From Cinnamomum chago (lineage: Eukaryota; Streptophyta; Magnoliopsida; Laurales; Lauraceae), in contig CP142452.1 in assembly GCA_038049695.1 (NCBI GenBank), positions 91,085,501 to 91,149,500 of the forward strand: a DNA stretch of 64,000 nt, read 5' to 3'. Positions 2,954-8,564 of the stretch are shown piece by piece; position 1 is the first letter of the stretch; every line of letters starts with the position of its first letter. The translations under genes were made by a program, and so were the position numbers. The notes below the pieces were generated by a model. That model was given only the letters and a program-made list of their open reading frames with translations. It was not told the DNA's origin and made no database searches.

Positions 2954-3102
2954 CAAAAAGTCTCCTTGGACCGGTCCTGGCCCGGTCCCCAGGGAGGACC
3001 CTTGGATCCCCTGGGGACCCTTGGATCCCCCTGGGATCCAAGGGTCCTCCCTGGGGACCGGGCCAGGATTCGGTCCCCAGGTTGGTCCAAGGAGCAGGGT
3101 TG
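2954..3102. mobile_element. GC-rich fold-back MITE with 9-bp target site duplication (Mutator-type size)
   Basis: The whole 149-bp segment is a palindrome and is much more GC-rich than its surroundings. A 36-base arm at 2975-3010 is perfectly complementary to 3033-3068. The outer arms (CTCCTTGGACC at the left, GGTCCAAGGAG at the right) also pair, with a 13-base insertion on the right side. The direct repeat ATATGAAAT flanks it at 2945-2953 and 3103-3111. A 9-bp duplication is the usual size for Mutator-like insertions. The loop repeats GGACCCTTGGATCCCC. Family assignment is inference from TSD length only. Confidence 0.75.
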
Positions 3103-3964
3103 ATATGAAATTGCCATGTGAATGAGACCCTCAAGTTGTCTAAAATTTAATTTACTCATTTAATAATAGTCTTTTTGGTGGGAAGGCATTACCTGGAGTT
3201 CTGGCCCTTTCGGTAAGAAGGCATCATGATCAGTTGGATATCTTAAAATTTTTATATTCGATTGAACGAATCACCCAATAATTTTGATAGTGGGAAAGTT
3301 TTCTCTCCCCTGGTATTTAAAATGGTACCGTTTTAGCCTTTTTTGCATCCCCTTTTTACTAGTTAGAGTCTCTTTTCTGTTTATAGTTTCTTGGGACATT
3401 TACTAAATAAATTCCCTTAAAGAGGATAATCACTGTTGGGACTTCAAAACTTTTATATTATCAGGGAAGGACCTCCAGCCCAAATCTTCCTTATTTTTGC
3501 CCATTTTATCCTTTGTTAGTTGTTGCCAAAGGGAAGGAAGCTGAAACACAAAAAGAAGAAAAGAAGAAACGGAAGAAGGAGAAGACCAGACCAGTCCAGT
3601 CTCCATTTCACTTCCATCTCCAGTCGAACGGCCACCGGTCGCACTCCACGTCTCTCTCTGTCTCTCCTCCTCGCCCTCCTCTTTTCCTCTACATCAAAAC
3701 CCAAGCCCTAGAGGAAGTCCTCAAAATCTGAAGACCTGGTTTTCAAGGTAATAAAATTCTACACACTCAACTCTTTTCTTCTCTTGTAAAAATAGATAGC
3801 CCTTTCTTCTCCAAGGTTCTTCTCCAATATTTTACATCCAAGGCATTTCTTCTTACAGTGATTTTTTGTTTTTCTAGTTGGTTGATTGGATTGATTTTTT
3901 GTTTTTTTAGTTGGTTGATTGGATTTTTTAGATAATACAATACAAGTAATGCCTTACCCTTGCC

Positions 3965-4262
3965 AATGAAAGCATACTGATAGCACTATATAAGTTCTGA
4001 AAAAAAACACAGAGTTCGTTGATATCAACTAAAAAGTATGTTGACATCAACAAATAAATGTGTTGATATTAATGAAAGCGTACTGATAGCACTATATAAG
4101 TTCTGAAAAAAAAACACAGAGTTCGTTGATATCAACTAAAAAGTATGTTGACATCAACAAATAAATGTATTGATATCAATGAAAGCGTACTGATATCACT
4201 ATTTTAGTTCTTAAAAAAAACACAGAGTTCGTTGATATCAACTAAAAAGTATGTTGATGGCT
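3965..4262 (+). repeat. Left subterminal tandem array (three ~106-bp units)
   Basis: Units start at 3965, 4071 and 4178 with AATGAAAGC(A/G)TACTGATA. Each contains the dyads TTCGTTGATATCAAC and GTTGACATCAAC. The third unit is cut short near 4260. The array is the inverted counterpart of the one at 7781-8190 in the same element. Confidence 0.9.
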
Positions 4263-4339
4263 GCTTCTTCACATCATCGCTTCCATCTAAATATCAAGAC
4301 ATGTAAAAGTAACACGATAAGATATAAGAAAGTGTTAAG

Positions 4340-5681
4340 TGCCAAATAAATATATTAAGAATGGGTTGATGTGCAAAACAAAATCAAACACAAAAAAAGG
4401 ATCTTCGATTCAACCAAACAAGAAGGTGAAACCATACCTGAAGCAATTATATTTTCTGATCCTTTTCTAGCAGTGAAAATAGTTGATTTGGATGAAGTAC
4501 ATGATCTTTCATCATGCTTTGCTCCCATTGTGAGAGATGTTGTGGTACCAGCCATTGGTGACACTGGGCGATCAGACATAAAAGACTACTTCCTTTCTAT
4601 TATATTTTGTATTTTCCCTTGCTTCAAGCCTCCTGAATTGTCAGAACAAGAGCTAATAGTACACTGCAATTTAGCATCTGAATCATCGGTATTTAAGAGG
4701 CCTGAGATTGTGCTTTCGAAGGACAGATTTTTGCTAAATGTCTGAATCAACCCCTCTTTTCTTGTGACACCACTGGAAAATTCTCTAGTCAATTTTTGTT
4801 TCTGAGAAACATCATGTAACTCTTTGGCTTTTGGCTTTGATTTACTGACAGTAGATGGCCTTGAAAGAGAACCTGAAAGAGCCAATGAATTGTATAGCTT
4901 TAAAAAAAATTTCACCAACCGAGAGCTGAATTGCCTCTGCCTTCTAAATAAAGCAAGTTACTGACCCAAAAACAGTGAAGGTATTTAAACTTACTGTGAA
5001 GTCGTTCTTGCATCCATGATGCATAAGGCCTGGAAGAACCAAGCAGGTGAATAGTCTCCTGAGAACCATTAGCAAAGCAGCTTGTGGGTGAAGCTACTAG
5101 ATGCACTGGCTTTGGTTTCCCAACATTCGAATTCTTGAATGAATTCTCTTGGGAGAGTTCAGCCCTCTTGGAGCTGGCCGTCCCTGGTGATCCAACAGTT
5201 GTTTCAACAGCATCTTTATTTAAAATTGAAGCGGCTTCCATATTTCCTACACGCCTTTCGGTGGGAACCTTAGGAGTTGCCATGGCTTTTATGGCTTGGT
5301 TTGCCTCTGCCTTCTGTGCCTTGTTCTTCGACTTTGGAAAAAGTTCTTTTTCACCCAATGATCATGATTTTGGAGTTTCTGAAACCACTTCAGTTTTAAC
5401 CAGTTTTCGCTTTTCAGAATCTTCCTTGAGCTGGCATTCTTCACATAGCCAGTCACTCTCTGGAACTTTATGCAGCATTATTGGCATGCAATAGCTAAAT
5501 AACATTAAACGAATATGTTACCTTTAAAGGTGAATATATATATATGAATGTGAAATAGTCAATAAATATAGTACTAGAAAAAAAAGGATGATTACATGTG
5601 CTCTGCGCCATCATTGCATCTGCTACAAGTAGCAAGCATCTCCTCACGTCCTGTATCCCCACAGATATCACATACTTTTAC
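4340..5681 (-). pseudogene. Captured PHD-finger gene fragment (AIPP2/PAIPP2-like), three exons, decayed
   Basis: Exon at 5596-5681 encodes VKVCDICGDTGREEMLATC followed by SRCNDGAEH, the first half of a PHD finger. A normal GT donor joins it in phase to 4995-5494, which begins (I)YCMPIMLHKVPESDWLCEEC and completes the zinc site. This exon then has a Lys/Ser-rich region with an in-frame TGA shortly after the finger (…TPKS, stop, SLGEKELFPK…). A third exon at about 4340-4945 (RQFSSRLVKFFLKLYN…LSGSLSRPSTVSKSKPKAK…) is split by a frameshift near 4583. The arrangement resembles the PHD-finger proteins AIPP2/PAIPP2, which act with BAH-PHD complexes at chromatin. That identification is from memory of the motif. 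It lies wholly inside the MULE, so I read it as a transduplicated host fragment, not the functional gene. Confidence 0.7.
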
Positions 5682-6772
5682 CTATTTCCAGATGGCACAA
5701 AAAGTGTCAATTTACGGAAATAATCATTAGCTGAAATATACCAAGAGAAAAACCATTCAAATATAAGAGCATTTTCCAATAAATCTCATGGCTGCTTACA
5801 ATTTCCAACAAGATGAATCCTGAAATGGTAGCAGGCATCTTTTCAGAACCAAAAGAAGAAAAAGGTCCAATCTTCTAAACATCTTCAATTTGTGAAAAGG
5901 AAAACCGACAATGATCGACAATAAGTGTATGCTTCTCTTATTCATTATATTTAAATCAATATCTTTACCAAAAAAAAAAAAACAGAAAAAGAAAGAAAGA
6001 AAACATAGCAGGCCATCCTTTTAAATGGTTTTATTATTGTCTAGCTAGGTTCTCATTCCAGTGATCCATAGATCTTTTGAAATTGCATCTTTCATTATTA
6101 TTTTGATTCATCTAAGGTGGCATTTGCCATGATGAGCTTTTGTAGGCAAGATTGGACATGCTTTCTTCGGGTTAAAATCAGAAATATAAATATATATTTT
6201 AATTTTCACTATGCCTTGCCTCTTTCTTCCAAAATGGCATATTCAATACCAGTAATTTAAGGAAGTCTCCATTGCATTCCAACTACAAAAAATAGGCTAA
6301 TCACAGAAGTAAAAGAAGATCACCCCTGTGATTGGACAAAACGAAAAGGCCCATAACAGTGATCCTCTAGATGTTTTTCTTCTCTGGAATGCACTAAAGG
6401 CCAGACTAATCTTTTCTCAATGAGATATGAATTCAGTGATTGCAAGATCTCCAGATGCAACAATTCAGTTGACCAAATAAAAAGAAAAAAACATTTATAA
6501 AAGCAAACCAAAGTTGCCCTTTGGAAAACAAAAATTCTTGTGGTGCTTGGTGTTCCACTGTCTATGGTCTGAAACCCTCAAAACCATTCAATTCAAAATA
6601 TACGTGCACCAGTTACATCACTCTACATCCATTGCATTTAGTGTGAAGGGGGAAAAAATTAAAAAAGAACATTATTATCACAACACGGTATGTTATTATC
6701 TTGTTCACTAAATTGAATTTTGATTTCTTCCTTGAAAGATGAAGATGGACTAATCATTATTATTTGGATGCA

Positions 6773-7227
6773 GTGATTCTCACAAAAGCTCTTCGAAAGC
6801 ACTTGGACGTGACATTTATAATTTTGAAGCAAATCCCGATATTGGAGTAAACAGTATCCATTCTTGTGATACCATTGATCCCACTGTTGATCTCGAGGAA
6901 GACATTGAAGCCATCTTCTCCTTTTCACCTGATCACTTTACATTAATAGACTCTCAGCCATGGGCAAATGATGATCCTACAATAGGGGACAAAATGCAAG
7001 AAGATGTGGGAATCCGCGCCGAAACGTCAACCTTTGTTGAAGATCCTAACATTGAAGATACGCTAGTGCCAGCTGATGATTTCAAACATGAGTTGCTAGA
7101 GAGTACTGCGCAAGATTTGTGGAAAGGGAGAATGTTTCCAGATCGTGATACATTTAGGAGAACCCTCGCGAAATTGTGGCTACTTGTGGTTCTGGCATTT
7201 GTAGCACTTTTTTTTTTTTTTTTGTAA
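6773..7227 (+). pseudogene. Possible MuDR-type transposase N-terminal remnant
   Basis: After a plausible acceptor (TTGGATGCAG at 6772) an open frame of about 150 codons runs to the stop after 7224. It is acidic and ends with LWKGRMFPDRDTFRRTLAKL, which resembles the start of the MuDR DNA-binding domain (pattern: hydrophobic, G, x, x, F, then a charged helix). It then runs into a poly-Phe stretch encoded by a T tract. The position inside a MULE and in the orientation opposite to the captured PHD fragment fits a deleted transposase gene. The match is short and the call is tentative; it could equally be part of another captured gene. Confidence 0.4.
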
Positions 7228-7780
7228 AGCTGGAACCATGTCTTTTGAAGTTGTCTAACCATCTATTTACTGCACTTTTGTATTTAGTGCCTACATTTGT
7301 AACAGGAGGAACAATGTCCTAATATTTTTTGTAAAGAGTGTTGGTGGATGTAGCTCTTTCATTTAATAGCAGACCAATGTTTATCTTTTATAGTGGGTGG
7401 ATAGAATGGTTGGATAATGTTCTTTCATGATCATTGATGTATTTTCTATTAATGGATCACTGCCATTTGGCAGTGTATATTGGATGGTTGACATGTTAAC
7501 TCTGATGGCCACTGTTGTTGATTTCATTTTCTTCTTGTATATATGTTGGAAGATAATCTAAAGTGCCCGTTGACAGTTTATTGTCTCACTGTAGTGATAC
7601 TAGTTAGTTCACAGGTTGTTCATGTGCTGTAGATCACATTTCCAAGAGAATTAAAGCATGAGTTTCATGAGAGTTGGAAAGGATTTGCACGACCAAAGGT
7701 ACCTCCAAGTGGTGCCATAGAGAATGGGAAAAAAACTTTCCAAGCTAGCATGACGTTTTCATACATATATACCAAATTTA

Positions 7781-8192
7781 TTCGTTGATGTCAACAAACT
7801 GTTGGTTGACATCAACGAACACAGTGTTCAATTTCTACACATAATATGTGCTAACAATACGCTTTCATTGACATCAACGAATTTATTCGTTGATGTCAAC
7901 AAACTGTTAGTTGACATCAACGAACACTGTGTTCAATTCCTATACATAATATGTGCTAACAGTAAGCTTTCATTGACATCAACGAATTTATTCGTTGATG
8001 TCAACAAACTGTTGGTTGACATCAACGAACACTGTGTTCAATTTCTACACATAATATGTGCTAACAGTAAGCTTTCATTGACATCAACGAATTTATTCGT
8101 TGATGTCTCGTTGATGTCACAAACTGTTGGTTGACATCAACGAACACTGTGTTCAATTTCTACACATCAACAAACTGTTGGCATCAACTACA
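7781..8192 (-). repeat. Right subterminal tandem array (three full 105-bp units and a partial one)
   Basis: Units begin at 7781, 7886, 7991 and 8096 with TTCGTTGATGTCAACAAACT. Reverse-complemented, they align with the left array (AATGAAAGC.TACTG.TAGCAC..., then CACAG.GTTCGTTGAT.TCAAC). The 110-residue open frame across this array is an artefact of the 105-base period, which is divisible by three. Confidence 0.9.
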
Positions 8193-8564
8193 AAGGGTTA
8201 GAATGGGAAGCAACATTTTACATTTGGGCGGGAGGTCCTACTCTGATATTAGAAAATTTTTAGGGTCCCAACAGTGGTTATCTTATGTAAGGGAATTTAT
8301 TTAGTAAATGTTCTTTACTTTTGTTTTAGTTGTAATGAATCTCTCCTTTGAAAAACTAAATTTGTGTATGTCCTTTTTTAAAACTGCAATTCTAAAATCT
8401 CCCAATGGAATTCGTGGGGGCTCAGTGTATAAACAACATATTGCCTGATATACAGAGCCTATTTAAAAATTCTATGGGGCCATCCCCCAAAGTTCCACAA
8501 ATGCTTTCAAGTTATACGGAAGTAGAGTTTTTTTTTTTTCTTTTTCTTTTTAGCTTGGGGGTCT

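Follow-up and report, generated by a model that had tools for sequence, protein, structure and literature searches.

The locus analyzed here raises the question of how part of a host PHD-finger gene, in reverse orientation and with introns in place, came to lie between the terminal inverted repeats of a transposon. It also raises the question of whether the product is a Pack-MULE, a term usually kept for elements that have lost the transposase gene and hold no transposase-related sequence inside. The window, meaning the whole 64,000-nt stretch that was analyzed, is C2:91085501-91149500 of a 1.06 Gb plant genome (Cinnamomum chago, 14 contigs). We consider it very probable that the feature at 3393-8314 is a non-autonomous, internally deleted copy of a Mutator-like element (MULE) family, and that its PHD block reflects gene capture followed by spread. 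The window element is a clear yet ordinary transposon gene capture that has decayed since.

With respect to the boundaries, the left 205 bp (3396-3600) recurs in at least 40 places in the genome at 91-100% identity (the best 40 of 251 first-look candidates were scored), so the inverted repeat is not a chance pairing. Stretches of 10 kb were fetched around 19 of the other 39 scored matches, and because all 19 copies open with GGGACATTTAC, the element start is placed at 3393, three bases before 3396. Copy comparison puts the right end at 8314; the final bases there are TCT, against CCC in other copies. The preliminary description, which had set the limits at 3396 and 8311, was therefore nearly right, the true ends lying three bases further out on each side. 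Its inverted repeat is likewise real, although the length of about 90-100 bp was an underestimate: the arms at 3396-3529 and 8178-8311 comprise 134 nt and are 79% complementary. The framework of the element is as follows.

3393..8314, plus strand (oriented by the transposase): whole MULE copy, 4922 bp; left end from 19 of 19 fetched 10-kb copies, right end from the 12 copies with an accepted right end
3393..3529, plus strand: left terminal inverted repeat (repeat arms; 40 scored genome matches of 3396-3600)
3961..4257, plus strand: left subterminal minisatellite, units of about 105-107 bp (repeat analysis of the window)
7775..8167, minus strand: right subterminal minisatellite, in inverted orientation to its left counterpart (repeat analysis of the window)
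8178..8314, minus strand: right terminal inverted repeat, ending in TCT where other copies have CCC, without target duplication (copy comparison)

The subterminal minisatellites of the two sides, with their units of about 105 bp, pair imperfectly with each other and are, by guess, candidate transposase-binding arrays. TTGATRTCAA-like cores occur in both. Outside the element, a GC-rich, near-perfect palindrome is found at 2975-3068, with two 46-nt arms that are 93% complementary and separated by 2 nt.

A right end was accepted in 12 of the 19 fetched copies, giving 13 two-ended copies with the window; L014, L015, L020-L022, L024 and L025 were left out, having no match or only an internal or dissimilar one. 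Ten of the 13 (L009, L010, L012, L013, L016-L019, L026 and L027) are flanked by a perfect 9-bp target duplication. Agreement is lower at L023 (8/9) and at L011 (6/9, so that no clear duplication was found there); at the window copy, only 4 of 9 bases agree, the right tip is altered and no target duplication was found. As a control, 156 left-right pairings between different copies gave no perfect agreement and four at 8/9, the flanks being A/T-rich. The window copy has thus lost, or never had, a clean target duplication, and its place in the MULE family follows from the ends and interior that it shares with duplicated copies. A search for a paralogous empty site with the joined flanks of the window insertion matched only their own place (2 matches). 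The preliminary reading of a multi-copy Mutator-like element with other copies elsewhere in the genome is nonetheless borne out by the recurrent left end, by similar long terminal repeats at other loci and by the roughly 9-bp duplications within the family.

Between the two minisatellites lies host DNA on the minus strand, and three spliceable exons can be recognized within it.

4258..6677, minus strand: host DNA from an AIPP2-like PHD gene, the rest of a 3.5 kb capture (copy comparison)
5681-5596, minus strand: exon A, first PHD-finger half; identity to the C6 gene 94.2% (86 bp), with splice sites
5494-4995, minus strand: exon B, remaining PHD-finger half plus linker (C6 gene match, splice sites)
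about 4872-4438, minus strand: exon C, linker region (C6 gene match, splice sites)

Splice signals are intact in the window copy. Specifically, AG precedes exon A, which ends CACAT/GTAAT; exon B begins TTTAG/CTATTG and ends ACA/GTAAGT; and exon C begins TTTCAG/GT and ends TTCAG/GTATGG. The reverse-oriented, intron-bearing PHD piece and the AEH-(I)-YCM junction across its intron, both proposed earlier, are therefore correct. The window copy carries a single stop in A+B and another in C. With its letters taken from the copy consensus, the spliced A+B finger scores 28.8 bits against PF00628 (cut-off 24). A sequence search of the PDB at 0.001 returned 33 distinct sequences; these are other PHD fingers, KDM5B being the best (2.9e-8), and none of the 33 is named AIPP2.

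A genome search with the PHD block gave 24 matches. At 16 loci identity is at least 98%; 11 of these carry the whole block (window included), one a nearly whole block (1-1215) and four only 363 bp (1-363). Outside the element, the block matches C6:3701249 (73%), C7:62871436 (72%) and C6:73372503 (70%), together with C10:50163862 in three pieces (91-98%) and C5:89643569 in two (91-96%), so that a host gene fragment with relatives outside does lie between the element ends. The 73% C6 locus (L028) is alike over 1.4 kb including introns, plus a stretch of about 190 bp upstream, and it encodes a SPOC_AIPP2 domain (3.2e-24) that is absent from the captured DNA; its exons, which the comparison covered rather than whole-gene structure, look open. 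A PHD finger in the consensus exons and SPOC_AIPP2 in this paralogue agree with the AIPP2/PAIPP2-like source that had been suggested. In the AIPP2/PAIPP2 PHD proteins as presented in PMC7718874, the likeness extends to the matching PHD exons and SPOC_AIPP2 of the C6 paralogue, whereas the element holds PHD and linker exons and the upstream stretch only.

The C10 (L029) and C5 (L030) loci match the PHD carrier L021 at 87-96% per piece. Because both continue into further C6-like sequence, they are taken for host loci and not element copies. Against L029, a 12-copy consensus is 91.1%, 97.6% (84 bp, mostly intron) and 93.2% identical, and against L030 93.5% and 95.5%. Since introns are present in the element and similar outside it, a retrocopy is ruled out and genomic capture, as first proposed, stands. 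Of the parental gene that this proposal called for, relatives are at hand, including the mostly intronic 97.6% piece at C10, but the exact donor was not found. Either locus as the exact donor is disfavored, because both differ near the right capture edge, where the element agrees with the C6 gene. Both are broken, and some DNA that the element has in common with the C6 gene is missing from both. Judged by sequence, they are closely related to the donor but not the donor itself. At the left capture junction, no flank on the donor side was found.

In the broken PHD gene copy at L029 (C10:50162800-50171200), stretches of other DNA, about 0.5 kb and about 5 kb long, separate the matching pieces. 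Within the captured DNA, about 1.2 kb (L021 4407-5647, partly window 5763-6677) is absent from both near-donor loci, and most of window 5763-6677 belongs to this segment. A search with 4420-5640 of L021 gave 36 matches, some away from the 40 listed left ends (the best 40 of 251 candidates), and the segment is perhaps a nested insertion.

The history of the capture can be read from the fetched copies, which fall into five types.

Type A: window copy and L009-L013; 4.8-5.0 kb
Type B: L014, L015 and L021; same blocks as type A, with additional DNA between
Type C: L016-L019; 7.7 kb, PHD block largely lost
Type D: L020, L022, L023, L025 and the shorter L024; no match to the PHD block
Type E: L026 and L027; ends and weaker minisatellite matches only

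L021 matches the PHD-less copies L022 and L023 up to its position 2444; the match resumes at about 5982, and the interval is host DNA. An uninterrupted site, with about 75 bp between the same points, is present in L020, L022, L023 and L025 (4 of 19 loci); in L021 these 75 bp are replaced by about 3.5 kb of host DNA oriented opposite to the transposase. The right capture junction occurs at 7 of 19 loci (L014-L019 and L021). The original left junction occurs in L021 only, and the window copy and L009-L019 share a further deletion there. This junction pattern across copies is explained by one capture event that then spread. Three later junctions set type A apart.

5763..5766, no strand: deletion junction with a 4-bp overlap, relative to type B copies; common to the window and L009-L013
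6675..6677, no strand: deletion junction with a 3-bp overlap, joining captured DNA to the transposase gene; common to the same copies
7170..7175, no strand: deletion junction with a 6-bp overlap, where the remainder of the transposase frame was lost; common to the same copies

All three are found in the window and L009-L013 and at none of 14 other loci (4 substitutions allowed), and the deletions, with overlaps of 3-6 bp, removed most of the transposase. In PHD-less L022, an open 618-aa frame scores above Pfam cut-offs for PF10551 (MULE, 2.9e-18), PF03108 (MuDR DNA-binding, 2.7e-12), PF00872 (Transposase_mut) and SWIM, so that a relative of the window copy holds a MULE/MuDR transposase; a frame upstream has a PB1 match below cut-off. 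Coverage of this 618-aa frame differs among the other copies. In the PHD carrier L014, two stop-free pieces in different frames together span residues 1-618; L015 covers residues 2-88 and L025 (no PHD) 1-592, and the alignment of L021 contains 6 stops. None of the PHD carriers L014, L015 and L021, nor L022, showed a right end in its fetched 10 kb, and hence no PHD carrier with transposase and no open-frame element was seen from end to end. At 8672-8983 of L022, minus strand, an ORF resembles by eye an Ulp1-type cysteine protease; it has no Pfam match at 0.1 and, as no right end was found for L022, may lie inside or beyond the element. In the window two features pertain to the transposase gene.

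3748..3749, plus strand: GT of a presumed splice donor of a leader exon (CTGGTTTTCAAG/GTAATAAA), which would open the intron holding the host DNA (read from the sequence)
6958..7176, plus strand: MULE transposase gene remnant, residues 1-73 of the 618-aa L022 frame (tblastn)

Six separate window ORFs searched against Pfam gave sub-threshold matches for one and none for five. From the layout, the site that received the host DNA would be an intron of the transposase gene.

These comparisons indicate that the 4.9 kb window element was not made by the capture itself; the capture would have occurred in a larger, transposase-bearing element, of which the window copy is a later derivative. We propose that the series began with a MULE carrying a transposase and an uninterrupted site upstream of the transposase frame. 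There, an intron-containing segment of an AIPP2-like PHD gene, about 3.5 kb long, would have replaced about 75 bp, the direction being presumably gain and not loss. The exchange may have come about when a break or gap in the element was repaired and the template switched to the PHD gene. PHD carriers lie at many unlinked places, and the window branch has lost most of its transposase at the three shared junctions. The short copies were presumably moved by transposase supplied in trans, and the antisense, intronic position may have made the PHD load tolerable.

The rival that survives best, though we hold it to be unlikely, is that read-through from the left end would give antisense PHD RNA and thence small RNAs acting on AIPP2-like host genes. 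The captured exons do lie antisense behind the presumed leader-exon donor site, and maize capture-bearing elements are reported in a review to be siRNA reservoirs able to silence donors (PMC13317346). The overlap in 21-mers (only those with all four bases were compared) argues the other way, since just 20 of 2403 from the window block are shared with the L028 region (9.5 kb around the C6 gene) and none of 2403 with L034 and L035 (701-bp pieces from C7 and from the second C6 locus), most of the overlap falling on the broken C10 (L029, 180) and C5 (L030, 109) loci. It would be very improbable that the MULE lineage itself gained, with antisense AIPP2-type RNA from the transposase-gene intron lowering host AIPP2-type repression and favoring the spread of PHD carriers without any protein.

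VANC proteins counter silencing in Vandal elements, and by analogy the MULE might use an AIPP2-type PHD reader or decoy as a working gene against silencing, a reading we regard as highly doubtful. In its favor, the consensus of 12 copies keeps A+B and C open over the part compared, the window splice sites are intact and the finger scores as a PHD; moreover, AIPP2 and PAIPP2 act in repression (PMC7718874). Substitutions, counted as distinct changes from the consensus in 12 copies (L033 is without exon A; indels uncounted), speak against it. In A+B 26 are nonsynonymous, 15 synonymous and 5 stops, and in C 21, 6 and 4; the 77 distinct changes thus comprise 47, 21 and 9 against about 54, 19 and 3 expected. 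Apart from the excess of stops, changes among copies look close to neutral, with no sign of purifying selection, and a working PHD protein is therefore unlikely. By raw counts over few sites in A+B (references L029 and L028), the element branch after the split from the C10 relative has 12 nonsynonymous to 2 synonymous changes and the C10 branch 20 to 6, with 10 gapped sites and one ambiguous change. Comparison with L030, covering 195 sites only, gives 1 nonsynonymous and 1 synonymous on the element branch and 2 and 1 on the L030 branch, with 2 gapped. In addition, the captured DNA stops before the SPOC-coding part of the C6 gene, and at 4 of 16 loci the block is reduced to 363 bp. This substitution pattern and the stops disfavor a working PHD gene; most likely the captured exons are passengers. 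Finally, chance juxtaposition of a PHD pseudogene between unrelated inverted repeats, or repeated independent captures, can be given almost no credence and is refuted by the shared junctions. In its favor is the lack of a target duplication at the window copy; against it stand also the same block at 16 loci and duplications at other carriers.

One capture followed by spread and decay thus remains the preferred reading, and it bears on how the element is classified. PMC6446971 describes Pack-MULEs as having lost their transposase genes, and in Rehavkus a PHD is one zinc finger of the transposase. The window copy has no full transposase, yet residues 1-73 remain, which makes it Pack-MULE-like and not a strict member; the earlier label is apt for the MULE ends and host fragment but passes over the transposase remnant and the earlier capture in a transposase-bearing element. 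With Pack-MULEs of rice, maize and other plants it shares MULE ends, 9-bp duplications in the family, an intron-bearing host fragment and many copies; unlike them, the capture lies in a transposase-carrying lineage, and the window copy has a transposase remnant and no duplication. Ulp1-carrying MULEs (Kaonashi/KIU), with captured Ulp1 domains in Arabidopsis as well as grapevine, melon and rice, likewise place host sequence beside other MULE coding genes (PMC13317346), although there the Ulp1 domain is reported to be conserved across eudicots and to belong to an element gene, whereas here the host DNA is antisense, fragmentary and drifting. Gap filling with template switching has been described inside TIR elements, and in animal gap-filling Pack-TIRs a small interior part of the element is replaced by foreign DNA, with breakpoints spanning a median 4.6% of element length (PMC8277862); those are mostly single-copy, in contrast to the amplified product in this plant.

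The review of gene capture in plants that treats Kaonashi and the effects of siRNAs on donor genes notes that rice Pack-MULEs alone hold fragments of more than 1,000 genes (PMC13317346), so one more captured gene is no surprise. No captured AIPP2-like PHD fragment was found in the Pack-MULE literature searched, most subscription papers lying outside that search. What distinguishes this case is that copies with and without the insert, together with near-donor loci, occur in one genome and make a single capture readable almost base by base, in the order of a transposase-bearing element, about 75 bp giving way to about 3.5 kb, spread and deletion. The gene fragment would accordingly have entered a transposase-bearing lineage first and only later appeared in short Pack-MULE-like copies. 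As the source gene family reads repressed chromatin, an siRNA effect is worth testing.
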